Origin: Anaerolineae bacterium
GTDB taxonomy: Bacteria; Chloroflexota; Anaerolineae; Aggregatilineales; Phototrophicaceae
Direction: 5' to 3'
DNA: 42,477 nucleotides
NCBI GenBank assembly: GCA_026645945.1
Contig: JAPKMO010000027.1
Coordinates: 1 to 42,477, forward strand
The notes beneath the pieces are model-generated. The model ran no database searches and was not told where the DNA came from. It saw nothing but the letters and a program-made list of their open reading frames with translations. This document shows, piece after piece, positions 4,267 to 34,041 of this stretch. The stretch's first letter is position 1, and the number at the start of each line of letters is the position of its first letter. Made by a program: the position numbers and the translations under genes.

Positions 4267-4326
4267 AATAAGATGTGCGAATGGTGGACACAAGCTGTCG
4301 TGTCCCATTAAGAAGGGAATGACGAT

Positions 4327-4764
4327 ATGAGCCAACCCGCATCACCTGCCCGCCGTTTCTCGCTTTCAGAGGACTGGCTGGCGACCATCATCGGCCTGCT
4401 GATTGTGGCGATCATCGGCCTGGGGCTGATCGGCCCCGGCCCACAGACCGTGACGCTGAAGGCCGCACCGGGTGCAAGCGTTGATAAAACGGCCAGGCCG
4501 CACGACGGCTGGAAAGCCAGCGCAACCATCGGCGGCGAAAAAGCCGTCGTTGAGGGCGCGCCAAAACAACTGGTGGACGCGCAGCTTTACCCGTTCGTTT
4601 GCGACGGCGGGCAGATGATTGCCGAAGCGGGCGACTCGTCACTGTCGCTGCCGTCCGGCGGCGCGTACTTGACGCTGACCAACAACTGCGACGCCGAGGC
4701 CAGCCTGACCTACACGACCGATTACGCCATCCGCTGGCCGCTGTTCGGGATTTTCAAACGGTAG
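4327..4764 (+). CDS. Small single-pass membrane protein of unknown function (145 aa)
   Basis: An N-terminal cytoplasmic tail (SQPASPARRFSLSEDW) is followed by one strong membrane helix (LATIIGLLIVAIIGLGLIG, about 18-37), then an exported domain of about 100 residues with two Cys (VCDGG and NNCDAE) that could form a disulfide. The C-terminus (RWPLFGIFKR) is hydrophobic. An AAGGGA ribosome site precedes the ATG. It lies 72 bases before the YeiH-type exporter on the same strand and may be an accessory subunit of it. That is inferred from adjacency alone, and I recognise no domain. Confidence 0.75.
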   Translation: MSQPASPARRFSLSEDWLATIIGLLIVAIIGLGLIGPGPQTVTLKAAPGASVDKTARPHDGWKASATIGGEKAVVEGAPKQLVDAQLYPFVCDGGQMIAEAGDSSLSLPSGGAYLTLTNNCDAEASLTYTTDYAIRWPLFGIFKR

Positions 4765-4836
4765 GGGAGAAAACCCCCTCTCTCAATCCCTCCCCATGCA
4801 CGGAGGGACGGGGAAGGGACAAAAGGAGACGCCAAT

Positions 4837-5937
4837 ATGACTACTACAACTGTATCCACTTCTACCCCTGTGCCGGCGCAGCGTTCGTGGCCGGGACTGG
4901 TGGCCGGCCTCGTCCTGCTGGCCGTCCTGACCATCCTGGTCGCCGAGCTTGATCTGGCGACCGCCGAGTTTTTTAAGGCGCAGGGCGTGGCGCGCAACCC
5001 GTTTGAATACCCGCTGACCGCCGTCATCATCGGCCTGATCGCCAACGGCCTGCTGCGGCTGGCCGGCTTATATACTTTCGTCCGCCCCGCCATCCGCACC
5101 GAGTTATATCTCAAAATCGGTCTGGTCATCCTGGGGGCGCGCATCAGCCTGGGCGACCTGCTGGCGACCGGCGCGGGCGGCCTCATCCAGGCGCTTATCA
5201 TGGTCGCCTCGGTGTTCTTTTTTACCTGGTGGCTGGCCGGGCGCTTCAACCTCGCGCCCACCCTCAAGGCGGTGATGGCCTCCGCCGTTTCAATCTGCGG
5301 CGTATCGGCGGCCATCGCGGCTGCCGGTTCGGTGATGGCGAAAAAAGAGGAAGTGACTTATATCACCGCCCTGGTCATCCTCACCGCGCTGCCGCTGATG
5401 GTGCTGATGCCGCCGCTGGCGAACGCGCTGGGGCTGTCGCCGGTGGTGGCCGGGGCGTGGTTTGGCGGCAACATTGACACAACGGCGGCGGTGGTGGGCG
5501 CAGGAACGCTGCACAGCCCGGAGGCGCAGCAGGTGGCGGCGGTGGTTAAACTGTCGCAGAACGTGCTGATCGGCTTTGTGGCTTTCGCGCTGGCGCTGTA
5601 CTTCGCGCTGCGCGTGGAGCGCAACCCCAACCAGCGCCCCAGCCCGATGATGATCTGGCAGCGGTTCCCCAAGTTCGTCATCGGCTTTGTGCTGGTTTCG
5701 CTGCTGGCTTCGATGGGCGCGTTCACGCCGGAGCTGGTCAAGGAGATGAACCGCGCCTACGAGTGGGCTTTTGCGCTGGCGTTTGTCTGCATCGGCATTG
5801 ACTTCGCGCCCGGCGCGCTGCGGCAGATGGGCTGGAGGCCGATTCTGGTGTACATAGGCGCGACCGTTTTTAACACCGTGCTGGCGCTGCTGGTCGCTTC
5901 GATGATCTTCGGCACGCTGGGGCTGGGCGGGGCTTAG
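4837..5937 (+). CDS. YeiH-family putative sulfate/anion exporter
   Basis: A 366-residue polytopic inner-membrane protein of the YeiH (UPF0324) family. About ten hydrophobic segments are visible. Family signatures are NPFEYPLTAVIIGLIANG, the LKIGLVILGARISL segment, SAVSICGVSAAIAAAG, and AWFGGNIDTTAAVVGAGTL followed by VVKLSQNVLIG. The family is annotated as putative sulfate exporters, with direct transport evidence limited. GGAG lies 8 bases before the ATG. It follows a small membrane protein and precedes pheT, with a palindromic repeat beginning right at its stop codon. The N-terminal 14 residues are Thr/Ser-rich and lie before the first helix. Confidence 0.9.
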   Translation: MTTTTVSTSTPVPAQRSWPGLVAGLVLLAVLTILVAELDLATAEFFKAQGVARNPFEYPLTAVIIGLIANGLLRLAGLYTFVRPAIRTELYLKIGLVILGARISLGDLLATGAGGLIQALIMVASVFFFTWWLAGRFNLAPTLKAVMASAVSICGVSAAIAAAGSVMAKKEEVTYITALVILTALPLMVLMPPLANALGLSPVVAGAWFGGNIDTTAAVVGAGTLHSPEAQQVAAVVKLSQNVLIGFVAFALALYFALRVERNPNQRPSPMMIWQRFPKFVIGFVLVSLLASMGAFTPELVKEMNRAYEWAFALAFVCIGIDFAPGALRQMGWRPILVYIGATVFNTVLALLVASMIFGTLGLGGA

Positions 5938-5984
5938 AGTTTATCCGTAAACCCACCAGACAGTGGGCTTAAGCCCACTGTCTG
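5937..5984 (+). repeat. Half copy (A) of a dispersed palindromic element
   Basis: It begins GAGTTTATCCGTAAACC and contains the palindrome CAGTGGGCTTAAGCCCACTG. It matches the first roughly 45 bases of the elements at 17741-17815 and (inverted) 40086-40160, but lacks the second terminal repeat. It lies immediately after the YeiH-type gene and may also act as a terminator-like hairpin. The rest of the gap to pheT (5985-6128) holds one more GC-rich hairpin near 6015-6035 and a GACTACCGACT motif. Confidence 0.8.
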
Positions 5985-6128
5985 TGTGCAGGTTAAGCTG
6001 GTTCATGTACTGGGGGCGGCCACACAGAGCCGCCTGCCTGACCGGCTGCGAAGTTTGCCGGGGTCGAACTTCCTTCGTCGAGAACCGGCGGCTAATAACT
6101 GAAAACTGTTGACTGAGGACTACCGACT

Positions 6129-8699
6129 ATGCGAGTACCTGTATCCTGGCTGAGAGATTACGTAGACATCACCATTCCGGTCGAACTGCTGGCCGAACGC
6201 CTGACCCTGGCCGGGTTGGAAGTCGGCGGCATCGAATACCTGGGGCTGCCACAGGGTCACGTCGAGGGCGTCCGCTGGCCGGAATCGCGCCATCTGGTCT
6301 GGGATCGTGAAAAAATCCTGCTGGCGGCCATCCGCGAGGTGAAGCCGCACCCCAACGCCGACCGGCTGGTGCTGGCGATGGTGGACTACGGCGGCGCGGA
6401 ACTGGAACAGTGCGTCACCGGCGCGCCCAACCTGTTCGACTATAAAGGCCAGGGGCCGCTGGAGCAGCCGCTCTGGACGGCCTGGGCGGCGGAAGGTGCG
6501 GAAGTGTGGGACGGCCACAGCGACGAACCCAAACGCATGATTTTGAAGGAAAAGCCCCTGCGCGGCATCCCCAACCGCAGTATGGTCTGTTCGGAAAAAG
6601 AACTCGGCCTGTCGGACTCGCACGAGGGCGTGATTGTGTTCCACGACCAGCCGCGTAACCAGGTCACCGGCCAGCCCGCCGCGCCCGGCACGCCCTTGCA
6701 GGATGTGCTGGGCGACATCATCCTGGAAGTGGAACTGACGCCCAACCTGGCGCGTGCCTACAGCATTTACGGCGTGGCGCGAGAAGTCGCCGCCCTGCTC
6801 GACCAGCCCCTGCGTTCGCCATCCTACGATGTGGTGATGGAAGGCGCGCCCATCGAAGGCCAGGTGTTTATCGAAATCCGCGACCCGGAACTGAACCCGC
6901 GTTTCACCCTGGCGCTGCTGCGAGATATGCAAATTCGCCCCGCGCCGGAGTGGATGCAGTGGCGGCTGACGCTGGTCGGCCAGCGCCCGATCAACAACAT
7001 CGTGGACGTGACCAACTACATCACTTTCGAGATCGGCCAGCCGCTCCACGCCTTCGACTACGATAAACTGGTGGCGCGCGCCGGAGGCAAACCGCCGACC
7101 ATCATCACGCGCCTGCCCGAACCCGGCGAGATGCTAGATACGCTGGATGAAAAAACCCGCCAGCTAGAACCGCACAACATCCTGGTTTGCGATACGGCGG
7201 GCGTCCTCAGCCTGGGCGGCATCATCGGCGGCGCGGAAACCGAAATCGGCGACGACACCCGCAACGTGCTGCTGGAGGCGGCCAACTGGAACTTCATCAA
7301 CATCCGCCGCACCATGCAGTCGCAGAAGGTGCAAACCGACGCCGGCCTGCGTTTCAGCCGGGGCGTGCATCCCGGCCAGGCCGAACGCGGCCTGCGGCGC
7401 GGCATCGAACTGATGCGCCAGTCGGCGGGCGGAACGGTCGCCCAGGGCATCCTGGATGCCTATCCGCTGCCTGCGCCGACGGTCGTGGTTGATCTGCCGG
7501 CGAGCGAAATCCGGCGGCTGCTCGGCCTGGACTTCACACCGGAACTGGCGGCGGGCATCCTGCGCCGCTTGCAGTTCGAGGTGGAAATTAACGGCGATAC
7601 GCTGCGCGTCACCGCGCCGGATCACCGCCTGGACATCGGCGAAAATATCATCGGGCAGGCCGACCTGATCGAAGAAATCGCCCGCATTTACGGCTACGAC
7701 CGCATCCCGGACACGCTCATCGCCGATGAGATGCCGCCCCAGTGGACGAACGTCGCCCTGGTGCGCGAGGAACGCACCCGCGACGTGCTGGTGGCGCTCG
7801 GCCTGCGCGAACAGATCAGCCACCGCCTAATCGCGCCGGAACGCGAGGCGCTGCTCGTCCCCGGCGGGAACGGCCCGCTCGTCCAGGCCGGTTACGTGGA
7901 ACTGGCGAATCCGCTGGCGGCGGACAAAACCGCCCTGCGCCATACCCTGCTCATCAGCCTGCTGGAGAACGCCCGCAGCAATGCGCGCTTCACCGCCCGC
8001 CAGCAGGTTTTTGAGATTGGCAACGTCTACCTCAAGCCGGACGACCAGCCCCTGCCGGACGAGCCGCGCCGCCTGGGCATTCTGCTGACCGGCCCGCGCC
8101 GTCTCGAATCCTGGCAGCAGGACGAACCTATCGCCAACATGGACTTCTTCGATCTCAAGGGCGTGGTGGAAGGGCTGCTGAAGGGCCTGCACATCGCCGG
8201 GGCGGTTTACGACCGCGCCGAACATCCCAGCCTGCATCCAGGGCGCTCGGCCGCGCTCAGCATCAACGGCGTCTCAATCGGCGCGTTCGGGGAACTGCAC
8301 CCGCTGGTGGCGCGCGCCTTCGACCTGCCGGAGACGCCCATCCTGGTGGCGGAGTTCGACCTGGAGGCGCTGCTTGACCAGGTGGAAGACCTGCACAAAA
8401 CCAGCGCGCTGCCGACCATGCCGCCGGTTTTGCAGGACATCGCCCTGGTGGTCGGCGAGGAAACACCCGCCGCCGCCGTCGAAGCCGCCATCTGGAAGGC
8501 GGGCGGCAGCCTGCTGCGCGGCGTTCGCCTGTTCGATGTATACCGGGGCGACCCTATCCCGGCGGGACACAAAAGCCTGGCCTACAGCCTGACCTACCAG
8601 GCCTTCGACCGCACACTGACCGATACCGAAGTGGCGAAAGTGCATCAGAAGATCGTCAAAGCCTGCGAGCGCGAGCTGTCTGCAAAATTAAGGGCGTAG
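6129..8699 (+). CDS. pheT: Phenylalanyl-tRNA synthetase beta subunit
   Basis: The 856-residue partner of PheS, which binds and edits tRNA-Phe. Visible parts in order are: N-terminal MRVPVSWLRDYVDI; an EMAP/OB-type tRNA-binding region (EVKPHPNADRLVLAMVDYGG and CVTGAPN) carrying an insertion (about 105-185); a B3/B4 editing domain (NNIVDVTNYITFEIGQPLHAFDYDKL, LSLGGIIGG, RFSRGV); a B5 domain (PDHRLDIGENIIGQADLIEEIARIYGYDRIP); a catalytic-like domain (RQQVFEIGNVY); and a C-terminal FDX-ACB domain (SALPTMPPVLQDIALVV to the end). It is somewhat longer than the usual roughly 800 residues because of the N-terminal insertion. GAGGA lies about 9 bases before the ATG. It is split from pheS by three unrelated genes. 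Confidence 0.97.
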   Translation: MRVPVSWLRDYVDITIPVELLAERLTLAGLEVGGIEYLGLPQGHVEGVRWPESRHLVWDREKILLAAIREVKPHPNADRLVLAMVDYGGAELEQCVTGAPNLFDYKGQGPLEQPLWTAWAAEGAEVWDGHSDEPKRMILKEKPLRGIPNRSMVCSEKELGLSDSHEGVIVFHDQPRNQVTGQPAAPGTPLQDVLGDIILEVELTPNLARAYSIYGVAREVAALLDQPLRSPSYDVVMEGAPIEGQVFIEIRDPELNPRFTLALLRDMQIRPAPEWMQWRLTLVGQRPINNIVDVTNYITFEIGQPLHAFDYDKLVARAGGKPPTIITRLPEPGEMLDTLDEKTRQLEPHNILVCDTAGVLSLGGIIGGAETEIGDDTRNVLLEAANWNFINIRRTMQSQKVQTDAGLRFSRGVHPGQAERGLRRGIELMRQSAGGTVAQGILDAYPLPAPTVVVDLPASEIRRLLGLDFTPELAAGILRRLQFEVEINGDTLRVTAPDHRLDIGENIIGQADLIEEIARIYGYDRIPDTLIADEMPPQWTNVALVREERTRDVLVALGLREQISHRLIAPEREALLVPGGNGPLVQAGYVELANPLAADKTALRHTLLISLLENARSNARFTARQQVFEIGNVYLKPDDQPLPDEPRRLGILLTGPRRLESWQQDEPIANMDFFDLKGVVEGLLKGLHIAGAVYDRAEHPSLHPGRSAALSINGVSIGAFGELHPLVARAFDLPETPILVAEFDLEALLDQVEDLHKTSALPTMPPVLQDIALVVGEETPAAAVEAAIWKAGGSLLRGVRLFDVYRGDPIPAGHKSLAYSLTYQAFDRTLTDTEVAKVHQKIVKACERELSAKLRA

Positions 8700-12907: not shown

Positions 12908-12936
12908 TTGCCAAACAGGATGGCTTTTGCTAAAAT
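12908..12936 (+). promoter_or_regulatory. Promoter of the glycosidase-like cluster
   Basis: TTGCCA (12908-12913) and TAAAAT (12931-12936) are separated by 17 bases. The predicted start near 12943 gives an untranslated leader of about 120 bases before the ATG at 13065, and that leader contains a terminator-like hairpin. Confidence 0.5.
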
Positions 12937-13064: not shown

Positions 13065-14693
13065 ATGCGACGTGTATGGATTGTGATCGGCTCGCTGCTG
13101 GTTTTACTGCTGATGACCGGCTCAACCCTGGCCGACATGCCCCAGCAGGCGGGCGGCGTTTCCGCCAAGGCGATTCAGAATTTGAACCTGCGCGCCGGCC
13201 CCGGTACGCACTGGAAGCTGATGGGAACGGTTGACGCCGGCACGACGGTGCGCCTTGACGGGCGCGACAGCTCTGCCACCTGGGTGCGCGGCCTCGTGCC
13301 TTCCGGCGAAGTGTGGTGGATGGCCGCCGCCTACCTGGACATTTCGCCCGAACGGGTTCAGGCGCTGCCGGTCGTGGGCGCGGACTCGCCATCCCAGCTT
13401 ACCGGCCCGGCTCCGGCACAGCCCTCCAACGCCCCGGCGCAGCCGTCCGCGCCGGCAGCCCCCGCTGGCTCCGGCATCCCGGCTTCAACAACCGCCGCCG
13501 TGAACGTCCGCAGTGGCCCCAGCGCCAGCGCCGAACGAGTGGGCCGGCTGGCCTACCGGGCCGAAGTGCGCGTCCAGGGGCGCAGCGCCGATGGCAATTG
13601 GGTGCGCGCGGCGCTGCCGGAAGGCGGCACGGGCTGGATTTCGGCGGCTTATCTAACCATCACGGCGGCCCAGATCGCCACCCTGCCGGTGGTTGAGGGC
13701 GGCGCGGCGGCTCCGGCGGCTGCTGCGGCTGCGCCCGCGCCAAATGCCCCAATCGTGAACACCGCACCGGTCAGCGGTTTTAGCGTGGGCGGCCATGTCT
13801 CCGGTTTTGGCTCGGCGGCTATCAACGCCATGAACCGTGCCGGCATGACCTGGGTTAAAAAGCAGTACCGATGGGGCGGCAGCGAAGGCTCGATTACCGG
13901 TATGATTACCGATGCACATGCCAAAGGTTTTCGCATCCTGATCGGCGTCGTCGGCTCTGCCGGTTCGGTCAACGACCCCAATTACATCGAACGCTACGCC
14001 AGTTTTGTGGCCGGCGCGGCGGCGGCGGGCGCGGACGCCATCGAAATCTGGAACGAGCAGAATATTGACCGCGAATGGGCGGCGGGCAGTATTGACCCGG
14101 CTAAATATACGGAACTGCTGCGTCAGTCCTATAACGCCATCAAAGCCGCCAACCCGAATACGCTGGTCGTCAGCGGCGCGCCCGCGCCTACCGGCTTTTT
14201 TGGCGGCTGCTCGCCCAACGGCTGCGACGACGCTCCTTTCCTGGCCGGGATGGCGGCGGCGGGTGCGGCCAGATACATGGACTGTGTGGGCGTGCATTAC
14301 AATGAAGGCATCGTACCGCCCAGCCAGACCAGCGGCGACCCGCGCGGCAACAGCGGCCACTATACACGTTACTTCCTGGGCATGGTTAACACCTATTACA
14401 ATGCCTTCGGCGGCGCAAAACCGCTCTGTTTTACCGAACTCGGTTATCTCTCGCCGGAAGGCTTCGGCGGCCTGCCTGACCATTTTGCCTGGGCGGCTAA
14501 CGTCAGCGTTGCCCAGCAGGCGGCCTGGTTGGCCGAGGCTGTTTCGCTGGCGCGCAGCAGCGGCAAAGTGCGCCTTATCATCGTGTGGAACGTGGACTTC
14601 ACCAACTACGGCGCCGACCCGATGGCCGGTTACGCCATGATTCGGCCTGACGGCTCCTGCCCGGCTTGCGATGCGCTGGCCGGCGCACGTTAG
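13065..14693 (+). CDS. Secreted SH3-SH3-glycosidase-like protein (clan GH-A fold)
   Basis: 542 residues from the ATG at 13065. The frame is open further upstream, but that part crosses a promoter, a hairpin and the element at 12778, and the signal peptide (VWIVIGSLLVLLLMTGSTLA) begins here. Two bacterial SH3-like repeats follow (about 34-92 with NLNLRAGPGTHWKLMG, and 140-197 with AVNVRSGPSASAERVG), joined by Pro/Ala linkers. The C-terminal TIM-barrel domain (about 243-540) has IEIWNEQNIDREW with Glu331 as the probable acid/base and CFTELGYLSPEG with Glu458 as the probable nucleophile. SH3 domains often bind peptidoglycan, so a wall-bound glycan hydrolase is plausible. The substrate is unknown. 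The C-terminal CPACDALAGAR is shared with the next protein. Confidence 0.87.
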   Translation: MRRVWIVIGSLLVLLLMTGSTLADMPQQAGGVSAKAIQNLNLRAGPGTHWKLMGTVDAGTTVRLDGRDSSATWVRGLVPSGEVWWMAAAYLDISPERVQALPVVGADSPSQLTGPAPAQPSNAPAQPSAPAAPAGSGIPASTTAAVNVRSGPSASAERVGRLAYRAEVRVQGRSADGNWVRAALPEGGTGWISAAYLTITAAQIATLPVVEGGAAAPAAAAAAPAPNAPIVNTAPVSGFSVGGHVSGFGSAAINAMNRAGMTWVKKQYRWGGSEGSITGMITDAHAKGFRILIGVVGSAGSVNDPNYIERYASFVAGAAAAGADAIEIWNEQNIDREWAAGSIDPAKYTELLRQSYNAIKAANPNTLVVSGAPAPTGFFGGCSPNGCDDAPFLAGMAAAGAARYMDCVGVHYNEGIVPPSQTSGDPRGNSGHYTRYFLGMVNTYYNAFGGAKPLCFTELGYLSPEGFGGLPDHFAWAANVSVAQQAAWLAEAVSLARSSGKVRLIIVWNVDFTNYGADPMAGYAMIRPDGSCPACDALAGAR

Positions 14694-14710
14694 GTTTCCT
14701 TTTCGACGCT

Positions 14711-14760
14711 CCCATCCCTTTGCCGGCCAGCAGTTGAGCGGGGGGATGGGCTGTTTATTT
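14711..14760 (+). terminator. Terminator after the SH3-glycosidase-like gene
   Basis: CCCATCCC (14711-14718) pairs with GGGATGGG (14743-14750) around a loop of about 24 bases, followed by CTGTTTATTTTG. It would limit readthrough into the gene at 14779, so the cluster is not one simple operon. Confidence 0.6.
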
Positions 14761-14778
14761 TGATGACAGGTATTCAGA

Positions 14779-17679
14779 ATGTCTGAAACATCCGAAGAAG
14801 TGTTCGTCCAGGAAGATACCCAGCCCTTCAGCCCTTTCCGCCGCGAGGCAGAACCACCGCCCGCGCAGCGCAGCGGCTGTGGATGCGGCTGCTGGCTGCC
14901 CGCGCTCATCACGCTGTTTCTGGTCGGTGTGCTGGTGGTGGTCGGGCTGTTTCTGCCGCCGATTGACCTGTATAACCGGCTGTTCGGCGTGCAGTACGCC
15001 ATGTTAAGCGCGGAAAACAATGCCGTTCGCTCGGAAGACGGCGGCCTGACCGTGCTGGTAGACCCCGCCGACCCCGGCACAGATTTTGGCGTTGCGCTGG
15101 AAGCGGCGGCAAGTAACGCGCCGGAAAACGCGGTGGCGTTGGCAGCAGCGCCCGTTCACCTGGCGCTGCAAGGCTCGATTTATGATGTCCAGACCACCGG
15201 CAGGGCGCCCGCTTCGGTAACGATGACCGTCGCCATACCACCAACCGCCGGCGGCAGCGCCGACATGCTCGACCTGTATGGCTGGGACGAAGCCAGCGGT
15301 CTGTGGCAGTTCGTGCCATCTCATGCGGTTGCAGCCGGCCAGTTGACGGCTGCCGTCCGGGAAGTGCCGGACAAACTGGCGCTGTTCCAGGCCAGACTGC
15401 TGGAACAGCCGACCGTGCTGGTGGCGGTGGATGCCACCCAGGTGCTTTCGCCGGAAGCTGGGCAGCTGGCGACCATCGTCGCGCCGGGCGGCTTGCAGCC
15501 CACCATCGAGGGCAAACTCACCGGCAGCCTGGCCGCCGGTTTCGAGCTGAACCGGGGTTATCTGGTGATGCCGGTCATCCGCAACTATGCCGACCCGCGC
15601 GCCCTGGATATTGATACGGTAACGGCCATCCTGGGCAGCCGCGCCCTACGCAGCGAGCATGTCGGCCAGCTGGCCGCTTTTGCCGGCAGCGGCGGTTTCG
15701 CCGGAGTGGTGATTGATTACCGTGACCTGCCCGCTGCTTCCCGCGAGGCATTCAGCGCCTTCATCCGCGAATTGGGCGAACGCCTCCACCAGCAGGGGCT
15801 TCTGCTGGGCGTCACCGTTCCAACAGCCGTTAACACCAGCGGCGTGTGGGACACCGGCGCTTATGACTGGCGCGCCATCGGCGCGGCTGCCGACTACCTG
15901 CACATCAACCTGAGTTTGAACCCGGAGGCTTTCGCCCCCGGCGCTGACCGCCCGGTGGAAGCCATGCTGCGCTGGGCCGTCGGCGAAACCAGCCGCTATA
16001 AAATCCTGCTCGGCCTGTCCGCACTGTCGGTGCGTAAGGTCGAAGACCAGCTAACGACCGCCAGCTACCAGGACGCGCTGGCCGCCCTGGGCAGCGTCGC
16101 AATCCAAGCCGAAACCAGCGAAGCCGGGACGATTGTCCCTGGCACGGAAATTCGCGCCAGCCTGGACGGTTACAAAGCCGTTTCGGGCATGGATACGGTC
16201 GTACAATCGCCGTTTATTGATTACCTGGGCGAAGATGATACACCGGTCGCCCGCGTGTGGCTGACCACACCGGATGCGCTGCGCTTCCGCATGGATCGCA
16301 CCGCGCTGTTTGGGCTGGCGGGGGTGGCTTTTGAAGACCTGCTGGCCGCCGGCGTGGCCGATGGCATCTACCCGGCCATCCTCAACTACAAACTGCAAAT
16401 GCCCACGCCGCCCACGCAGACCGAACTGGCCCTGCGCTGGCGCATCGAAAGCGCGGGCGGCCTGCTGACTGAAATCACTACCGGCCTGGGCGAAGACCTG
16501 GTGACTACGCTGGAAGCGCCGGAAGGCAATTACGCCATTAACGTGGCTGTCGTCGGGGCGGATGGCGAAAAACCCCGCAGCGGCGCGGCAGTGGCGCTCT
16601 TTAACCCGACGCCGACGCCCACCCCGCTGCCGACCGCCACGCCCACGCCGGAGCCGACGCCCACCTCACCGCCGCCCCCCGTGCAGGCGCCCGCAAACCC
16701 TGCTCCTGCTGCGGCAGCCGTCGCACCGGGCGCGGGCAGCATCGTGGCCGGCAGCTTTGAGTACGGCGGTCACGTCACCAGCACCAGCAGCGAAGCCGCC
16801 GCCGCCGCCATGCGCCGCGCCGGCATGAACTGGATGAAAATCCAGATTCGTTATTCCGGCGGTATGTCTCCCGCCGTCGCCACCGAACATATCAACGCGG
16901 CGCGGGCGCGGGGCTTCAAAATCCTGCTGGCGCTGGTCGGCAACCCCGGCGAACTGGCGGGCGGTGGGCAGGGTTATATTCAGGAATTCGCTTCGTTCCT
17001 GGGCGGCGTGGCCGCGCTTGGCCCGGACGCGATTGAAGTATGGAACGAACCCAACATTGACCGCGAATGGCCGACCGGCCAGATCAGCGGCGCGACCTTC
17101 GCCGACATGATGCGGCAGGCGTACCAGGCCATCAAGGCCGCCAACGGCAGCGTTCTGGTCATCAGCGGCGCGCCCGCCCCCACCGGCGCCGAGGCCGCTT
17201 ATCCCGGCCAGGTCGTCAACGACGACCGCTTCATCCGCGACATGGTGGCTGCCGGCGGCCTGAACTACATGGACTGCCTGGGCGCGCACTACAACGAAGG
17301 CATCGTTGGCCCCAGCCAGCGCAGCGGCGACCCGCGCGACGGCTACTACACACGCTACTTCTGGGGCATGGTGGATACCTACTGGAGCCTCATCGGCGGT
17401 CAGAAGCCCATCTGCTTCACCGAACTGGGGTATCTGACGCCGGAAGGGCTTGGCCCGCTGCCGGAATTTTTCGCCTGGGCGCAAAATGTCACCGTCGGCC
17501 AGCAGGCTGCCTGGCTGGCCGAAGCGGCGGCGCTGGCCTCGCAAAGCGGCAAGGTGCGGCTGATGATCGTCTGGAACGTAGACTTTTCGTCCTACGGCTC
17601 TGACCCCCAGGCCGGTTACGCCATGATTCGGCCCGGCGGCGTCTGCCCGGCCTGCGACGCGATGGCGTCCGCACGGTAA
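14779..17679 (+). CDS. Membrane-anchored GH18-like plus glycosidase-like fusion (966 aa)
   Basis: A cytoplasmic acidic tail with a CGCGC patch (about 34-38) is followed by one membrane helix (LITLFLVGVLVVVGLFL, about 43-60). The middle (about 225-560) resembles the YaaH-type GH18 barrel: GFAGVVIDYRDLPAASREAF, LHQQGLLLGVTVP, ADYLHINLS. The catalytic Glu of the GH18 motif is replaced by Arg315 (I-D-Y-R), so it is probably non-catalytic and perhaps glycan-binding. A Pro/Thr-rich linker (about 610-650) leads to a second barrel (about 665-966) nearly collinear with the preceding gene's, with WNEPNIDREW (Glu757) and CFTELGYLTPEG (Glu882). Both Glu residues are kept, so this half may be active. The substrate is unknown. 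The start lies 85 bases after the previous gene. Confidence 0.87.
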   Translation: MSETSEEVFVQEDTQPFSPFRREAEPPPAQRSGCGCGCWLPALITLFLVGVLVVVGLFLPPIDLYNRLFGVQYAMLSAENNAVRSEDGGLTVLVDPADPGTDFGVALEAAASNAPENAVALAAAPVHLALQGSIYDVQTTGRAPASVTMTVAIPPTAGGSADMLDLYGWDEASGLWQFVPSHAVAAGQLTAAVREVPDKLALFQARLLEQPTVLVAVDATQVLSPEAGQLATIVAPGGLQPTIEGKLTGSLAAGFELNRGYLVMPVIRNYADPRALDIDTVTAILGSRALRSEHVGQLAAFAGSGGFAGVVIDYRDLPAASREAFSAFIRELGERLHQQGLLLGVTVPTAVNTSGVWDTGAYDWRAIGAAADYLHINLSLNPEAFAPGADRPVEAMLRWAVGETSRYKILLGLSALSVRKVEDQLTTASYQDALAALGSVAIQAETSEAGTIVPGTEIRASLDGYKAVSGMDTVVQSPFIDYLGEDDTPVARVWLTTPDALRFRMDRTALFGLAGVAFEDLLAAGVADGIYPAILNYKLQMPTPPTQTELALRWRIESAGGLLTEITTGLGEDLVTTLEAPEGNYAINVAVVGADGEKPRSGAAVALFNPTPTPTPLPTATPTPEPTPTSPPPPVQAPANPAPAAAAVAPGAGSIVAGSFEYGGHVTSTSSEAAAAAMRRAGMNWMKIQIRYSGGMSPAVATEHINAARARGFKILLALVGNPGELAGGGQGYIQEFASFLGGVAALGPDAIEVWNEPNIDREWPTGQISGATFADMMRQAYQAIKAANGSVLVISGAPAPTGAEAAYPGQVVNDDRFIRDMVAAGGLNYMDCLGAHYNEGIVGPSQRSGDPRDGYYTRYFWGMVDTYWSLIGGQKPICFTELGYLTPEGLGPLPEFFAWAQNVTVGQQAAWLAEAAALASQSGKVRLMIVWNVDFSSYGSDPQAGYAMIRPGGVCPACDAMASAR

Positions 17680-17691
17680 ACGTTTACAAGG

Positions 17692-17722
17692 CGGCGGCCG
17701 GCCATACGGTTAAAGGCCGCCG
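17692..17722 (+). terminator. Hairpin after the GH18-like fusion gene
   Basis: CGGCGGCC (17692-17699) pairs with GGCCGCCG (17715-17722). The T-tract is poor (TCTGTGATG), so termination strength is uncertain. Confidence 0.45.
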
Positions 17723-17740
17723 TCTGTGATGTAATGATAA

Positions 17741-17815
17741 GAGTTTATCCGTAAACCCACCAGACAGGGGGCTTAAGCCCACGGTTCTGCTATCAGATCA
17801 ATCGGTTTATGGATA
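17741..17815. mobile_element. Dispersed palindromic element, full copy B
   Basis: TATCCGTAAACC at the left end (from 17746) and GGTTTATGGATA at the right end (to 17815) are terminal inverted repeats with one mismatch, around GGGCTTAAGCCC. Apart from a few substitutions it equals the inverted copy at 40086-40160, including the outer GAGT. No coding capacity. A GGGG-CGCG-CCCC palindrome follows at 17821-17840. Confidence 0.8.
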
Positions 17816-17869
17816 GGTTCTAAGGGGACGCGCCCCCTTATAACGCACGATAAACAAGAGGAGCGGAAG

Positions 17870-19315
17870 ATGTCCTCACAATCTGTCATCCGGCGGCGGC
17901 GGCAAATTCGGGATTTTGCCCTGGTGTGGACGGCCATCACCGTCATCATGGGAGCCTGCACCTTCGTCGCCATCTACACGGCTTACGGCTCGCTGAACCA
18001 GGACGCCGCCAACCCCAACCAGCGCCAGGTGGCGTTATATACGCCCACCACCGGCGCGGCGGCAGTCGTCCCGACGGCTATTCCCACCCTACAGATTGCC
18101 GCGTCCGTCCCCAGCGCCACGCCGCAGCCGCCGCCCGCGACCGAAATCGCTCAGGCCGCGGTCAGCGCGGCACAGCAGGCAACCGTCGCGCCGGAGCCGG
18201 CCAGGCCCACCCCCACGCCGCTGCCGATTGACGACCGCCGTTATCAAGTCGGTATTCAGGTGCAGTACAGTCTGGACATGAACCCTGACAACCAGGACGG
18301 CTGGATGCGTGAGGTCGGCCAGAAACTCGGCATGGAGTGGTTCAAACAGCAGGTGCGCTGGGAAGACGTACAGCCCGCCCGCGACCAGTGGGATTGGTCA
18401 AAACTCGATCTGGTGATGCCTTCTGCCGCCAGGTTCGGCCTTAAAACCATGATGTCCATCGTCACCGCCCCGGACTGGGCGCGCGAGCCGGGCGTCAACG
18501 TGCAGAAACACGGCCCGCCCGCCAGCAATGCCGATTACGTCAACTTCGTGACCGAAATCCTGAAGCGTTACCCCAACCAGGTACACGCCATCGAAGTCTG
18601 GAACGAGCAAAATCTCGACCGCGAGTGGACTTCCACCGGCGGGCTGAGCGCCGCCAACTACGTGGCGCTGCTGCGCGATACCTATACGGCGGTTAAAGCC
18701 ATTGATCCCGGCATCATCGTCATCAGCGGCGCGCTCTCACCGACCGGCGGCTGGACGGAGCCAGATGGCCGCGTGAGCGCCATTGACGATTTTGATTACA
18801 TGACGCAGATGATTAACGCCGGGCTGCTGAACTATGCCGACTGCGTGGGCGCGCACCACAACGGTTATAACATCGGCCCCAGCGTCCCCTGGGACAGCGT
18901 GCCGCCCGACGCCAGCGCCAGCTTCCGGGGACCGTTCGATAACCCGCACCACAGCTGGAGCTTTTACAGCACCCTGCGTACCTATGCCAACAAAATCCAG
19001 GTGGCCGGGGGCGATCAAAAGTTATGCGTGACCGAGTTCGGCTGGGCCTCCACCGAAGACCTGGGCGGTTATCCCCCCGGTTTCGAGTTCGCCAACGACA
19101 ATACCCTGGACGAACAGAAAGAATGGACGATTCAGGCCATCCGGTTGATGGGTGAATGGGACATCGTGTGGCTGGCCTTCCTGTGGAATCTTAACTACGG
19201 CCCGCAGGCCGGTTGGGACACCAACAACGATAACGTTCCGTACTCCATTATCGGCAAAGACTGGCAGTTCCGCCCGGTTTACGACGCACTCATCGAATGG
19301 AATCAACAACGATAA
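17870..19315 (+). CDS. Membrane-anchored glycosidase-like protein (clan GH-A fold, 481 aa)
   Basis: A basic N-terminus (SQSVIRRRRQIRD) and one membrane helix (FALVWTAITVIMGACTFVAIY, about 15-37) place the rest outside. A long Thr/Pro/Ala linker (about 45-120) leads to the barrel (about 125-481). GVNVQKHGPPASNADYVNFV and the YPNQVHAIEVWNEQNLDREW segment (Glu246 probable acid/base), VISGALSPTGG, CVGAHHNGYNIGPS and CVTEFGWAST (Glu389 probable nucleophile) parallel the two preceding proteins, though the sequence is more diverged. GAGGAGCGG lies just before the ATG. It overlaps the next gene by 19 bases. It may degrade or remodel an envelope glycan; the substrate is unknown. Confidence 0.88.
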   Translation: MSSQSVIRRRRQIRDFALVWTAITVIMGACTFVAIYTAYGSLNQDAANPNQRQVALYTPTTGAAAVVPTAIPTLQIAASVPSATPQPPPATEIAQAAVSAAQQATVAPEPARPTPTPLPIDDRRYQVGIQVQYSLDMNPDNQDGWMREVGQKLGMEWFKQQVRWEDVQPARDQWDWSKLDLVMPSAARFGLKTMMSIVTAPDWAREPGVNVQKHGPPASNADYVNFVTEILKRYPNQVHAIEVWNEQNLDREWTSTGGLSAANYVALLRDTYTAVKAIDPGIIVISGALSPTGGWTEPDGRVSAIDDFDYMTQMINAGLLNYADCVGAHHNGYNIGPSVPWDSVPPDASASFRGPFDNPHHSWSFYSTLRTYANKIQVAGGDQKLCVTEFGWASTEDLGGYPPGFEFANDNTLDEQKEWTIQAIRLMGEWDIVWLAFLWNLNYGPQAGWDTNNDNVPYSIIGKDWQFRPVYDALIEWNQQR

Positions 19316-20550
19316 CCCGGCGGCGGTTCTCTCAAACCTTCAGGGTCAGGGCCGGCCTTACAGGGGTTGGCCTGACCCTGTTTTTTGTGGCGCTTATCGC
19401 CCGCTTCAGTCTCTATGACCCCTTCCAGGCCGCTGCCGTCACCAACCCGCCCTTTACGTCTCTGACCTACGGCATCCATGTTTTTCTGTGGTGGGATAAA
19501 ACGCGCGCCTCGATTCACCTGGATTGGGCGCGGTTGATGGTTTTCAGCCATGTTAAACAGGTGTTCGCTTGGGAGGACATCCAGCCGCAGCCCGGCCAGT
19601 GGGACTTCGCCCGCGCCGATGAAATCGTGGACGAAACCGGCCAGAAAGGGCTGAAGCTGGTCGCCCGTTTGAGCGACGCGCCGGACTGGGCGCATCCCAG
19701 CCTGCAAGGCCATAAGGACGTTAATTTTGTGGATGCCCCGCCCGACGACCTGGATAACTGGGCGGCCTTTTGCGGCGCGGTGGCGGCGCGCTACCGGGGG
19801 CGTATCGCCGCCTATCAAATTTGGAACGAGCCGAATCTTTCCCGCGAGTGGGGCAGCCGCCCGCCCGATCCCGCCGCGTATGCACAACTGTTGCGTGCGT
19901 GCGGCCAGGCCGTGCGCGCCGCCGACCCCGCCGCCATCATCATTTCGGCGGGTTTGGCGCCCACCGGCACGTATGACCAGACCGCCATCCCGGATGATGT
20001 TTACCTGCAAGCCCTATACGACGCGGGGTTTCAGCGTCATATAGATGTGGTGGGCGTCAACGCGCCGGGCTACAATAATCCCCCACAAGTCAGCCCGGAT
20101 GAAGCGGTGGCGCGCGGCAGCCAGCGGTTTTTTACCTTCCGCCGGGTGGAAGACCTGCGAAAAATCATGGTTGCCAACGGCGACGCCGCCCGCCAGATGG
20201 CGATTTTAGAGATGGGCTGGCACAGCAACCCCGGCATTGACGCCAGCTACGCCTGGTACGCGGTGGACGAAGCCACCCAGGCGCGTTATCTGGTGGATGC
20301 CTACCGCTACGCCGCCGAACACTGGCGGCCCTGGATGGGGCTGATGACCACCATCTACCTGGCCGACCCATCCTGGACGCCTGACCGGGAGGAATACTGG
20401 TGGGCGATCACCACGCCGGAAGGTTATACCCGCCAGGCTTTCCTTGACCTGGCAAACATGGCAAAATACTGCGGCAGCCGGGTTATCCCGGCCCGGCAGC
20501 CCGACAGCCCGGAGGCGCTTGGCCTTGTCACCGTTGATCCTTGCGATTAG
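19297..20550 (+). CDS. Membrane-anchored glycosidase-like protein, fourth paralogue (417 aa)
   Basis: It starts inside the 3' end of the previous gene. The N-terminus is basic (TRRRFSQTFRVRAG) with a membrane segment (LTGVGLTLFFVALIARFSLY, about 21-40). There is almost no linker before the barrel, unlike the three upstream paralogues. The barrel has VFAWEDIQPQPGQWDF, LVARLSDAPDWAHP, IAAYQIWNEPNLSREW (Glu178 probable acid/base), IISAGLAPTG, and MAILEMGWHS (Glu305 probable nucleophile). It therefore retains the catalytic pattern of clan GH-A families such as GH39/GH5, but I cannot assign a family. The overlap with its neighbours on both sides indicates tight coupling with the genes at 17870 and 20525. 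Confidence 0.87.
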   Translation: MESTTITRRRFSQTFRVRAGLTGVGLTLFFVALIARFSLYDPFQAAAVTNPPFTSLTYGIHVFLWWDKTRASIHLDWARLMVFSHVKQVFAWEDIQPQPGQWDFARADEIVDETGQKGLKLVARLSDAPDWAHPSLQGHKDVNFVDAPPDDLDNWAAFCGAVAARYRGRIAAYQIWNEPNLSREWGSRPPDPAAYAQLLRACGQAVRAADPAAIIISAGLAPTGTYDQTAIPDDVYLQALYDAGFQRHIDVVGVNAPGYNNPPQVSPDEAVARGSQRFFTFRRVEDLRKIMVANGDAARQMAILEMGWHSNPGIDASYAWYAVDEATQARYLVDAYRYAAEHWRPWMGLMTTIYLADPSWTPDREEYWWAITTPEGYTRQAFLDLANMAKYCGSRVIPARQPDSPEALGLVTVDPCD

Positions 20551-21031
20551 TTATTTTTTCCACCTGCTCGCTACCGTTGTCTGGATTGGCGGGTTGGTCA
20601 TTCTGGTTGTGCTGGTCTGGCCGGAGGCGCGCCGCGTCCTGGAACGGGATACCACGCTGCTGACGCTGCTCACCCGGCTGCGCCGCCGTTTCGTCCCGCT
20701 CAGCAACTTCAGCCTGGTGGTGCTGGTTATCACCGGCCTGGTTCAGATGTCCGGCGACCCGAACTACGACGGCCTGCTGCAATTCAACAATGACTGGAGC
20801 CGGGCGATTCTGTTCAAACATATTGCCGTCGCCGGTATGGTGATCGGCGGCGTGGTGTTACAATACGTCGTAACCCCGGCGCTGGAACGTGCGACCCTGC
20901 TGCTGGAACGCGGCAAAGGCGACCCGGCGGAGTGGGAACGGCTGCGCCGCCGGGAAATCCGGCTGACATGGCTGAATGTCGCCCTGGGGGTAGCCGTCCT
21001 CGCTTTCACCGCCTGGGCGACCGCGCTCTAA
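20525..21031 (+). CDS. CopD-like four-helix membrane protein
   Basis: About 168 residues with four membrane helices. The start is set at TTG 20525 because GGAGG lies at 20511-20515. The open frame begins earlier (20444), but inside the upstream gene and without a ribosome site. The first helix (SYFFHLLATVVWIGGLVILVVLV) carries the His and the WIGG pattern of CopD-type (copper resistance/copper import-like) membrane domains. Further helices are FVPLSNFSLVVLVITGLVQMS, ILFKHIAVAGMVIGGVVLQYVV and LTWLNVALGVAVLAFTAWA. Copper handling is the family-level association, but CopC or other metal genes are absent here, so the role is open. It overlaps the glycosidase-like gene by 26 bases. Confidence 0.8.
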   Translation: MSPLILAISYFFHLLATVVWIGGLVILVVLVWPEARRVLERDTTLLTLLTRLRRRFVPLSNFSLVVLVITGLVQMSGDPNYDGLLQFNNDWSRAILFKHIAVAGMVIGGVVLQYVVTPALERATLLLERGKGDPAEWERLRRREIRLTWLNVALGVAVLAFTAWATAL

Positions 21032-21212: not shown

Positions 21213-23234
21213 TTGTCGAGCCGCACCAGTTATGCTCTGGCGGTAGGCCTGCTGCTGCTGGCCGCCGTCCTGCGGATGTGGACTTTATCCGCCCTGCCGC
21301 CGGGGCTGCACGACGAAGAAATCACCGACATCCGCGTGGCCGAAACCGTCCGCCAGGGGATCATCGAAGTTTTTTATGACCTGGGCGATGGCGAGGGGCG
21401 CGAAGGTCTGTACCATATCCTGCTGGCCGCCATCACCAGCTTCACCGGCAGGGGACTGCTCGGTTATCAGATCGTCTCGGTCTGGGTCAGCCTGCTGACG
21501 CTGGCGCTGCTCTATGCGCTGGCGGCTCGCTTGTTTGGCCCGCTGGCCGGCGTGGCGGCGCTGGCGCTGCTGGTCGTCAACCTGTGGACGACCCTGCTGG
21601 GGCGCAGCATCGGGCGGGAAATACTGCTGCCGCTGCTGGCGACGGGCATTCTGCTGACGCTGGCGCGGGTTTTTGGCATGTTCCGGCACGGTCGCCCACG
21701 CCCGCCCGCCACCACCCCTTTCGCCGCCCTGGGGCTGCTGCTCGGCCTGGGGTTTTACGTCCATCCGGTTCACTTCCTGCTCGTCCTGGCGAGCATGGCG
21801 TTTATCGTCTATATGGTTCGCGCGCGGCGGCGGGTATCGCGGCGCGCCCTGGGGTATCTGGGGTTCGGTCTGCTGGTGATGATTATTTTCGCCACCCCGT
21901 ACCTCATTTCCAGCCTGCGCCTGCCGCAGCTCAGCGGGGCGGGGCGGCTGCTGGGCGATTATACCATCCCGCAAAATCCGCCCCTGCGCGCCATCGGCGA
22001 AAGCCTGGGTGGGCTGTTTTTTAGCGGCGACTCTGATCCGGCGCATAATCTACCCAATCGCCCGCTGTTCGATCTGGTCAGCGGCGCGCTGCTGCTGGTC
22101 GGCCTGTTGGCGGCACTGCGGAACGGGCGGCAGCCGCGTTATTTTCTGCCGGTCATCTTCACGCTCGTCCTGTCCCCGGCAGCCATCCTATCGCTTAACA
22201 CGCCCGATTTCCAGGCCATGACCGGCCTGCTGCCGCTGCTGGCGCTTTTTTTCGGCCTGGGCGTCAGCACACTTTATCACAGCCTGCCAGCGGCCAGCCG
22301 CCGCCTGATGGCCGCCGGGCTGCTGGCGCTGCTGGCTTTTAACCTATTCTGGGTAGGGCGTGACCTGTTCCAGTTCTGGCCGAACCTGGAAGCAGTTCAG
22401 ACGGTTTATCACAGCCGCATCGGTCAGTTAGCCCGCTACCTGGATACAACGGCGGATGATCTGCCCACGCTCATCTGCGACACGCCCGCTCCGGCCTCGG
22501 GGCGCGGGCTGGGCAGCACCGATCTGCTGCTGCTGATGATGAACCGCAAGCAGGCCCCGCTGCGTTACGCCGACTGCGGAACCGGCCTAGTGCTGATGGA
22601 CGGCGGCGCGCGCCAGCAGATTGTTTTTGCCGACGCGCAGATGCTTCATGGGATGCATCCATACCTGCGGCGCTGGATTGAACGCGGCATTTTGCTTGAC
22701 CAGCCCGGTTTACCGGCCAGCGCGGTTGTCGAAATTAACGTCGAGCGCGAGCTGGCCGATACCATCGGGCGCTTTATCACCACCGCCCCGGTCGGTTATG
22801 CGCCAGAAGCGCCGGGGGCTTCCGGCGCGGCAACCGCGCCGATTCGTTTTGGCGGCAACATCACCTTCCTGGGTTACGAGCGCGAGCCGACCGAGATGTA
22901 CGTGCCGGGGGGCATACTCACCTTCATCACCTATTGGCGCGCGGATGGCCCGATTCCACCCAATTTGCGCCTGTTCACTCATGTGCTGTCTGACCCGGCT
23001 TCGATAGCCGCCCAGACCGATACCATTAGCGTCAACGTCGGCTCGCTGCGCAACCGCGACGTGTTGATTCAGGTCACGTTTGTGCCGCTCCCGGCCTCCA
23101 TACCGGGCGGTATTTACAATATCTCCATCGGCGCGTATGATGCTACCAACAACGTGCGTATGGGCGTGCTGGACGACGAGCAGCAGCGCGGTACGCGCCT
23201 GTTCGTGGGGCAAATTTCGGTGGCGCGCAGGTAG
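21213..23234 (+). CDS. GT-C fold (ArnT/PMT-like) membrane glycosyltransferase
   Basis: 673 residues. The start is TTG at 21213 with AGGGGG 6 bases upstream; the nearby ATG is out of frame. About ten or more membrane helices fill residues 5-410. The first loop has LPPGLHDEEITDIRVAET, where an Asp-Glu pair matches the catalytic acidic motif of GT-C enzymes that use polyprenyl-phosphate sugars. A soluble C-terminal domain (about 430-673) includes an Ig/beta-sandwich-like stretch (GGNITFLGYEREPTEMYVPGGILTFITYWRADGPI). It probably transfers a sugar to a protein or lipid on the outer face. It follows the glycosidase-like cluster on the same strand and precedes RNase Z by 7 bases. Donor and acceptor are unknown. 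Confidence 0.82.
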   Translation: MSSRTSYALAVGLLLLAAVLRMWTLSALPPGLHDEEITDIRVAETVRQGIIEVFYDLGDGEGREGLYHILLAAITSFTGRGLLGYQIVSVWVSLLTLALLYALAARLFGPLAGVAALALLVVNLWTTLLGRSIGREILLPLLATGILLTLARVFGMFRHGRPRPPATTPFAALGLLLGLGFYVHPVHFLLVLASMAFIVYMVRARRRVSRRALGYLGFGLLVMIIFATPYLISSLRLPQLSGAGRLLGDYTIPQNPPLRAIGESLGGLFFSGDSDPAHNLPNRPLFDLVSGALLLVGLLAALRNGRQPRYFLPVIFTLVLSPAAILSLNTPDFQAMTGLLPLLALFFGLGVSTLYHSLPAASRRLMAAGLLALLAFNLFWVGRDLFQFWPNLEAVQTVYHSRIGQLARYLDTTADDLPTLICDTPAPASGRGLGSTDLLLLMMNRKQAPLRYADCGTGLVLMDGGARQQIVFADAQMLHGMHPYLRRWIERGILLDQPGLPASAVVEINVERELADTIGRFITTAPVGYAPEAPGASGAATAPIRFGGNITFLGYEREPTEMYVPGGILTFITYWRADGPIPPNLRLFTHVLSDPASIAAQTDTISVNVGSLRNRDVLIQVTFVPLPASIPGGIYNISIGAYDATNNVRMGVLDDEQQRGTRLFVGQISVARR

Positions 23235-23241
23235 CCTGAAT

Positions 23242-24243
23242 ATGTTTGAAATCGTCTTTCTCGGCACATCGGCCTCCGCGCCGTCCATCCATCGCGGAAT
23301 GCCCGCCCAGATCGTCCTGGCCGGTGAATACCGGTTTCTGGTAGACTGCGGCGAAGGCACGCAGCGGCAGATTCTCCGCAGCGGCGTGGGCTTTAAACGC
23401 CTCAACCGCATCCTGCTCACGCACGCTCACCTCGACCATATCCTGGGCCTGGGCGGGCTGGTATCCACCTTCGCCCATTGGGAAAGCATCGAAGAAATCG
23501 AAATCTGGGGCGGCAAAAACACCCTCGACCGGGTGCAGGCGCTGCTGTACGGCGTCGTGCTGGATTACGACCGCCTGCCGATGAAAATTCACCTGATGGA
23601 CATCCAACCGGGTTTGCTGCTGGACGCCCGCGATTTTTCGGTCAGCGCCTTTCCGGTTACGCACCGGGGCAGCGGCAACTTCGGTTTTATCTTTCAGGAA
23701 AAGTCCCGGCGGCCCTTCCTAGCCGAAAAGGCCGAGGCGTTGGGCGTGCCTGCCGGCCCGGAGCGCAGCCAGCTCGTGCGCGGCGAAACCATCACCCTGA
23801 CCGATGGCCGCCGCGTCGGCCCGGATATGGTGTTGGGGGAAACGCTGCGCGGCGTCAAACTGGTGCATATCGGAGACATCGCCCGCACCGACAATATCCG
23901 CGATTACGTGGCCGAGGCCGATGCGCTGGTGATCGAGGCCACGTTTTTACAGGCCGATGCCGACACCGCCCACGACTTCGGCCACCTGACCGCCCGCCAA
24001 GCGGCGGCGCTGGCGCTGGAAACCGGCGTCAAAACCCTGCTGCTGACGCACATTTCCCGCCGCTACCGCGAACGCGATGTCATCGAAGAGGCGCGGCAGA
24101 TTTTCCCCAATACGTTCGTCGCCCGCGACCTGGATCATTTCGCCATCCGGCGCGACCAGCCGGTCGAAAAACGCTTATCCCGACCGGCAGCCGACCCGGC
24201 GCAGCGAGATGAGCCGGTAATATTCACCGAGGATAACGCCTGA
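23242..24243 (+). CDS. rnz: Ribonuclease Z
   Basis: A 333-residue metallo-beta-lactamase-fold endonuclease that matures tRNA 3' ends. The start is ATG 23242 (FEIVFLGTSASAPS is the usual RNase Z N-terminus). A longer frame begins inside the upstream gene and is rejected. Zinc ligands are in LLTHAHLDH (His61, His63, Asp65, His66), with further ligands in PVTHRGSG, HIGDIARTDN and LTHISRRY, and the exosite/FGHLTARQAA region before the end. The C-terminal 30 residues (RRDQPVEKRLSRPAADPAQRDE) form a hydrophilic tail beyond the core. It is 7 bases from the glycosyltransferase gene and convergent with the histidine kinase. Confidence 0.95.
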   Translation: MFEIVFLGTSASAPSIHRGMPAQIVLAGEYRFLVDCGEGTQRQILRSGVGFKRLNRILLTHAHLDHILGLGGLVSTFAHWESIEEIEIWGGKNTLDRVQALLYGVVLDYDRLPMKIHLMDIQPGLLLDARDFSVSAFPVTHRGSGNFGFIFQEKSRRPFLAEKAEALGVPAGPERSQLVRGETITLTDGRRVGPDMVLGETLRGVKLVHIGDIARTDNIRDYVAEADALVIEATFLQADADTAHDFGHLTARQAAALALETGVKTLLLTHISRRYRERDVIEEARQIFPNTFVARDLDHFAIRRDQPVEKRLSRPAADPAQRDEPVIFTEDNA

Positions 24244-33970: not shown

Positions 33971-34041
33971 CACAGCGCCTAATTGTTGGATTTCGTGTAA
34001 TATAACAAATAAGGTGGTTCTATTAGTTGAGGCGGGGCATT

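Follow-up and report, generated by a model that had tools for sequence, protein, structure and literature searches.

The nearest solved relative of the proteins treated here is PslG of Pseudomonas aeruginosa (PDB 4zn2, 5bx9, and 9g17), which extracts of PMC11912335 present as a retaining endo-beta-glucanase acting on Psl and as a member of CAZy glycoside hydrolase (GH) family GH39. According to extracts of PMC9075953, PslG is found mainly at the inner membrane, its effects depend on its two glutamates, and Psl changes location on the cell when PslG is lost. Here, we describe an array of four consecutive genes for PslG-like proteins in a 42,477-nucleotide stretch of DNA, hereafter the window, from an Anaerolineae bacterium (Chloroflexota; order Aggregatilineales; GenBank assembly GCA_026645945.1, contig JAPKMO010000027.1, positions 1 to 42,477 of the forward strand). 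In our reading, which we consider probable, the four genes form an operon, and their products are PslG-like retaining endo-beta-glycosidases that are tethered to the envelope and act upon surface polysaccharide of the cell itself. The basis for this reading is the predicted fold, the catalytic residues, the N-terminal hydrophobic anchors, conservation, gene linkage, and the occurrence of related barrels fused to a Wzy_C or GT-C domain. The elements of the array are as follows:

13065 to 14693, + strand: protein 1, open reading frame (ORF) of 542 aa
14779 to 17679, + strand: protein 2, ORF of 966 aa
15721 to 15723, + strand: codon of R315 of protein 2, the position of the GH18 catalytic glutamate
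17870 to 19315, + strand: protein 3, ORF of 481 aa
19297 to 20550, + strand: protein 4, ORF of 417 aa

The genes encoding proteins 3 and 4 overlap at their ends by 19 bases. The ORF list opens protein 1 at 12606, but the ATG at 13065 is the better start, with a signal-peptide-like stretch beginning there. An earlier note, made from the sequence alone, had reported four consecutive exported glycosidase-like ORFs here, and their positions and common strand are as it described. Since both the gene order and the key residues recur in relatives, the array goes beyond chance.

By alignment, each of the four proteins carries the motif W-N-E-x-N, followed by R-E-W and a second glutamate. The earlier note had read the same residues, with Gln or Pro at the variable position, and indexing them returned the pairs it listed, namely E331/E458 in protein 1, E757/E882 in protein 2, E246/E389 in protein 3, and E178/E305 in protein 4; in protein 1, the alignment would make E331 the acid/base and E458 the nucleophile. 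AlphaFold models were made for protein 3 (46 natural rows) and protein 2 (35 rows), with proteins 1 and 4 being judged by alignment only. In the protein 3 model (mean predicted local distance difference test score, pLDDT, 88.4), E246 follows strand 240–243, the fourth main strand, and E389 lies within strand 385–392, the seventh. The protein 2 model (mean pLDDT 87.3) has E757 just past strand 751–754 and E882 within strand 878–883. Both models are (beta/alpha)8 barrels with one glutamate after strand 4 and another in strand 7, and the earlier placement in clan GH-A, for which the strand-7 position of the second glutamate had been named as the deciding point, is upheld for these two proteins.

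The same glutamates are conserved among relatives. In 80 related loci and the window, once aligned pieces gapped at both columns had been dropped, 218 of 229 barrels keep both residues (38/41 in the protein-1 class, 31/34 in the protein-2 class, 79/84 in the protein-3 class, 69/69 in the protein-4 class, and 1/1 unclassified), where the class is that of the best BLAST match to the window's four proteins. The loci were chosen by a pattern including W-N-E, so that conservation of the first glutamate is partly a product of selection. The idea that all of the barrels are active does not quite hold, as 11 of the 229 are without one or both glutamates. Both were lost together in two protein-3-class barrels (L061:9656-11098 and L064:2680-4128; WHQQN and VTAFGW).

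Where the earlier note could assign no GH family, searches of solved structures point to the PslG, or GH39, side of the clan. A profile of 12 barrels from the same genome found PslG first in the PDB (E 5.8e-30), then 5jvk (1.6e-20; family 39 by title) and a GH39 xylosidase (6e-10). Foldseek, run with the modelled structure of protein 3, likewise put PslG first (21% identity, E 3.6e-19, target template modelling score 0.61), and hence by both profile and fold the closest solved structure is a GH39 member. As single sequences, proteins 3 and 4 match PslG at E 9e-10 and 2.9e-13, respectively. Against Pfam GH39 (cut-off 26 bits), the protein 4 barrel scores 16.2 bits and the other three have no match; failing this cut-off does not exclude GH39, because a 306-aa piece of PslG, used as a control, itself scores 22.5 bits. 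All window barrels fall below the GH5 cut-off (Cellulase, 23.5 bits); against GH113 (cut-off 27 bits), which 2 of 17 class-1 proteins match at E≤0.001, proteins 1 and 2 reach 18.4 and 13.5 bits; and only protein 4 passes GH42 (cut-off 21 bits), with 23.5 bits over 48 residues. No known Pfam or NCBIfam GH family is decisive, and we read the partial GH5 and GH42 matches as general GH-A similarity. On the sequences and models, the barrels appear to sit in the PslG/GH39 neighbourhood and are candidates for formal GH39 membership. The description as PslG-like has good support in the case of proteins 3 and 4, whereas for proteins 1 and 2 the support is less direct.

PslG resembles the array in its GH-A barrel, its WNEPN acid/base motif, and its strand-7 nucleophile, and also in being membrane-associated and working beside surface-polysaccharide synthesis. 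It is ~21% identical to protein 3, however, and the array differs from it in comprising three or four diverged copies, which bring N-terminal helices of their own as well as SH3b or GH18-like parts, and in having no psl-type synthesis cluster around it. The GH39 enzyme of Bacteroides cellulosilyticus (5jvk) and GH39 beta-xylosidases have the fold and catalytic layout in common with the array, with weaker similarity than PslG.

What precedes the barrel differs from protein to protein, in the way the earlier note had outlined: two SH3-like stretches, a helix plus a GH18-like domain, a helix plus a linker, and a helix alone. Protein 1 has a signal-peptide-like start, two SH3b stretches (Pfam SH3_3, 68.6 bits against a cut-off of 27), a linker, and a PslG-like barrel at ~aa 239–540; SH3_3 was found in 15 of 17 class-1 proteins scanned. 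Protein 2 opens with a membrane helix (aa 40–57) and a beta domain (~80–217), continues with a GH18-like barrel (~220–545), Ig-like strands (551–607), and a low-confidence linker, and ends in a PslG-like barrel (661–965). Protein 3 consists of an N-terminal membrane helix (modelled at aa 3–43), a low-confidence linker, and a PslG-like barrel (~122–481), whilst protein 4 has an N-terminal hydrophobic helix (~aa 17–34) and a PslG-like barrel, with no further accessory part. The prediction that the proteins are exported or sit on the membrane is supported in nearly all relatives. Among proteins uncut by a contig end, and with the window excluded, an N-terminal hydrophobic stretch is found in 72/74 of the protein-3 class, 66/67 of the protein-4 class, 55/57 of the GH18-fused proteins, and 16/16 of the protein-1 class; one short protein-2-class row has none, and one unclassified row has one. 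A pattern search also found lipobox-like motifs in 19 protein-3-class and 25 protein-4-class proteins; these motifs and the anchors were called by simple pattern and hydropathy, not by a trained predictor.

The N-terminal part of protein 2 scores 25.2 bits against Pfam GH18, below the cut-off of 29.6. Foldseek nevertheless returned GH18 enzymes as the best matches of the protein 2 model (5jh8, E 3.6e-19; SleL, 2.2e-18). Ranked lower were 5jvk (6.2e-12) and PslG (2.0e-11), for which the output does not state the aligned barrel. Ym1, an animal chitinase-like lectin, was also among the fold hits; such lectins have likewise lost the catalytic glutamate. Taken together, the sequence and structure searches give this part a GH18 fold, in common with SleL/YaaH, YdhD, and bacterial chitinases (PDB 4s3k, 3cz8, 5jh8, and 4q6t). 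The catalytic motif of GH18 enzymes is DxxDxDxE, ending in the catalytic glutamate, and protein 2 differs from them in having an arginine, R315, in its place. Among 60 proteins of at least 850 aa, the position is not Glu in 58, and Glu is kept in two (L100 and L103). We therefore rejected an active chitinase for the window and consider that the domain is probably a glycan-binding pseudo-chitinase, because the catalytic residue has been replaced so widely. The GH18-like domain of the earlier note thus stands as a fold, whilst a second active enzyme is improbable. PgaB, as described in extracts of PMC5933820, is like protein 2 an envelope protein of polysaccharide processing with two carbohydrate domains in tandem; it differs in that its domains, a deacetylase and a glycoside hydrolase serving synthesis of poly-N-acetylglucosamine, belong to other families, and in that one domain of protein 2 looks inactive. 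At three places (G134:C11, G140:C205, and G146:C251), only the GH18-like part gives a match; it lies just upstream of protein 3 and is interrupted by one or more stops, a pattern that would fit loss of the C-terminal barrel of protein 2.

A scan of public genomes gave at least 584 relatives, of which the best 80 loci were kept (81 with the window). Judging by their titles, we take 79 of these 80 to belong to Chloroflexota. The nearest named contigs are from Chloroflexi bacterium L.E.CH.71 (96% in protein 3) and an Aggregatilineales bacterium (86%). Within the best 80, the next barrel lies ≤600 bases downstream of the protein 3 match in 67 of the 78 loci with room for it, being of the protein-4 class in 65, and a barrel lies upstream in 55 of 72 loci with room; three barrels stand in a row in 48/80 loci and four in 13/80. 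As the best 80 are the top-scoring part of the scan, the test was repeated on 31 sampled genomes of the order. All 31 contain protein 3, with one match each at E≤1e-130, and 27 contain protein 4 (E≤1e-100); the two are ≤700 bases apart in 20 genomes. A match to the protein 2 profile lies ≤700 bases from protein 3 in 23 genomes, some of these matches being to the barrel or the GH18-like part alone and the one in G127 overlapping protein 3; in 18 genomes, protein 2 is nearly complete and free of stops. Some of the misses may be due to contig breaks. In a sample of 121 genomes of the phylum, relatives match the protein 4 profile at E≤1e-10 in 57. The synteny check called for in the earlier note thus shows an array that recurs in relatives, is mostly old, and is not unique to this genome.

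The four proteins, which the earlier note had taken as paralogues, turn out to be part of a larger family: the genome (4.7 Mb in 254 contigs, 92.6% complete) has 12 such barrels at E≤0.001, with eight outside the window on eight contigs. The barrels of proteins 1 and 2 are 62% identical, whereas that of protein 3 is 33%, 30%, and 26% identical to those of proteins 1, 2, and 4, respectively. In a quick maximum likelihood tree of 103 barrels, supported by the Shimodaira–Hasegawa-like approximate likelihood ratio test only, proteins 1 and 2 share one group (support 100), the relatives of proteins 3 and 4 from the window's lineage lie in separate groups, and membrane-fused barrels, with some short ones, form another; the placement of two long rows, from contigs 133 and 190, is uncertain. 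A recent tandem duplication of all four was rejected, given these separate groups and an identity of 26–33% between the protein 3 barrel and the other three, as against the 87–97% identity of each protein to its counterpart in the nearest relative, L033. Some later duplication is nevertheless part of the history, as the 62% identity and the shared clade suggest that protein 1 was copied from the barrel of protein 2 at a later time. Two paralogues elsewhere in the genome have replaced the nucleophile, with Ala on contig 214 (L028:5652-7082; VTAFGW) and with His in a Wzy_C-fused protein on contig 99 (L032:1789-5163; AGHWGW), and from their sequences these could possibly be binding-only barrels.

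The surroundings of the array in the window include the following:

12908 to 12936, + strand: promoter-like site upstream of protein 1 (TTGCCA-17-TAAAAT, with TG ahead of the second hexamer)
20444 to 21031, + strand: CopD-like membrane protein (Pfam CopD, 41.0 bits; cut-off 32.1)
21213 to 23234, + strand: GT-C (PMT_2) membrane glycosyltransferase-like protein (Pfam, 31.3 bits; cut-off 26.1)
23080 to 24243, + strand: metallo-beta-lactamase-fold protein (Pfam), start uncertain, often next in order

The promoter-like site is weak as a candidate, because four such sites were observed in the region and 2.9 are expected by chance. The true start of the CopD-like ORF is probably after the end of protein 4. 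Elsewhere in the window, the phenylalanyl-tRNA synthetase alpha and beta genes are split by GDSL lipase-like and PF03601 genes (2084-8699, + strand), a 935-aa protein that combines WD40 repeats with a TIR domain at its N terminus (34027-36834, + strand) looks, from its domains, like a TIR-WD40 signalling or defence-type protein, and a 1069-aa ORF (36847-40056, - strand) has no Pfam match at E≤0.01.

The CopD-like and GT-C genes to which the earlier note had drawn attention both recur as neighbours in relatives. Fifteen neighbour clusters are each present in at least six of the 81 loci. Pfam identifies them as metallo-beta-lactamase (33/81 loci, window included), GT-C, CopD (23/81), MiaB-like, RodZ, O-methyltransferase, ribosomal L9, amino-acid kinase with PUA, glycerate kinase, RNA cyclase, KDPG aldolase, methyltransferase, phosphoglucomutase/phosphomannomutase (at +2 from protein 3 in 6/81), and glutamine synthetase, with F12 having no Pfam match. 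Among the 31 genomes of the order, the GT-C protein occurs in all and lies ≤1.3 kb from protein 3 or 4 in 19; it lies this close even where protein 4 is undetected (G125) or elsewhere (G128, G135, G141, and G147).

A second link to polysaccharide assembly comes from 11 proteins in 11 genomes, our own included, in which the barrel is followed by a membrane domain (11–13 hydrophobic segments in all, by simple hydropathy); ten of the 11 were picked for length from the phylum sample. Of five that were scanned, four carry Wzy_C (O-antigen ligase) and one PMT_2 (GT-C), and 9/11 keep both glutamates. The fusion on contig 99 of our genome is followed by genes for macro-domain, sugar epimerase/dehydratase-like, second Wzy_C, GtrA, and glycosyltransferase family 4 (GT4) proteins. 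The barrel gene on contig 190 is preceded by a Wzy_C gene and followed by a solute-binding protein gene, an unscanned gene on the opposite strand, two GT4 genes, and a GT9 gene.

If the analogy with PslG holds, the substrate of the array would be a beta-linked surface chain of the cell's own making, with hydrolysis as the presumed reaction and a beta-gluco-type linkage as the presumed target. The four genes would be read as one transcript. Proteins 2, 3, and 4 would be held in the membrane by their N-terminal helices, perhaps with a lipid anchor in some relatives, and protein 1 would probably be secreted and held on the wall by its SH3b domains. The GH18-like part of protein 2 would probably do no more than bind glycan, which may be peptidoglycan or the chain as it grows. 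Working on the outer side of the membrane, the GT-C protein would extend the chain with sugars taken from a lipid-linked donor, and the barrels would then cut it, trim it, or release it.

Several observations weigh against this reading. First, the gene linkage is incomplete: GT-C is not near protein 3 or 4 in 12 of the 31 genomes of the order, proteins 3 and 4 are found on separate contigs in six genomes, of which four belong to a single genus, and in G133 a distance of 1.6 kb separates them and protein 4 contains a stop. Second, the recurrent neighbours are largely housekeeping genes (MiaB-like, RodZ, L9, glutamine synthetase, and kinases), so that linkage alone is modest evidence, and the linkage of CopD, GT-C, and metallo-beta-lactamase genes may partly reflect general conservation of gene order. 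Among the window ORFs scanned, GT-C is the sole glycosyltransferase, amid mostly housekeeping genes, and no polymerase or export gene, as would be found in a psl-type synthesis cluster, stands beside the array. Third, protein 1 alone has no significant match to PslG (E 0.26), and some relatives pass the Pfam cut-off of GH5 or GH42 rather than GH39 (contig 214 paralogue, 28.7 bits for GH5 and 22.2 for GH42; contig 99 fusion, 24.5 for GH42; L114 and L121, 32.6 and 26.2 for GH5). Finally, in the phylum sample, the protein 3 profile is found at E≤1e-80 in only 26/121 genomes, and in 11 listed genomes of family f2, of the same class, neither it nor the protein 4 profile (E≤1e-10) was found.

We considered it unlikely that the barrels are instead ligases, that is, transglycosidases that attach polysaccharide to the wall or to a lipid anchor. 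Such a role would suit the retaining mechanism expected from the glutamate pair, the tethering, and the fusion of related barrels to O-antigen-ligase domains, and transglycosylase is among the secondary activities of GH39 named in extracts of PMC8543862. However, sequence does not separate hydrolysis from transfer, and PslG is described as hydrolysing in extracts of PMC11912335. It seems equally improbable that the barrels cut peptidoglycan, or a wall-linked polymer, in growth and division. The SH3b domains, Pfam LysM matches on two paralogues in our genome, the closeness of the GH18-like part to chitinases and SleL/YdhD-type enzymes, and a RodZ gene further downstream in 14/81 loci speak for such wall hydrolases; on the other side, the GH18-like catalytic glutamate is gone, the barrel is PslG/GH39-like, and the activities named in extracts of PMC8543862 and PMC11912335 do not include peptidoglycan. 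Least likely is nutrient scavenging, in which the barrels would digest foreign plant, algal, or other bacterial polysaccharides for growth: although the nearest families include xylosidases and other GH-A enzymes, GH39 (named without detail) and other carbohydrate-active enzymes of Anaerolineae are read as carbohydrate degradation in extracts of PMC11650866, and the SBP_bac_3 solute-binding gene directly after the contig 190 barrel hints at uptake there, the tethering, the near-universal orthologues within the order, the GT-C neighbour, and the Wzy_C/GT-C fusions all argue otherwise, and no sugar transporter was found in the window ORFs scanned or, with at least one member of each looked at, among the 15 recurrent neighbour clusters.

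The array is real, conserved, and of a recognizable kind. It is undescribed in the open-licence literature that we searched, the available extracts of which contain no description of such an operon or of an array of PslG/GH39 proteins in this phylum. A broader and more tentative possibility is that it forms the core of an undescribed system for envelope-polymer assembly retained across the order, in which GT-C might build or decorate the chain, the pseudo-chitinase might grip the chain or the wall, and three or four tethered PslG-like enzymes, each reaching a different distance from the membrane, might cut or transfer the chain.

To our knowledge, little is known of the envelope glycans of uncultured Chloroflexota, and a glycosidase set of near-universal orthologues that is linked to GT-C in most of the 31 sampled genomes, and has relatives fused to Wzy_C or GT-C, provides a concrete handle on their chemistry. 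The array also offers a natural series in which to study why clusters for polysaccharide synthesis should require a hydrolase, as extracts of PMC9075953 ask in the case of PslG. That most of the four genes are kept across the sampled genomes of the order, usually side by side and often close to GT-C, may be a sign that these bacteria build their surface in a common way.

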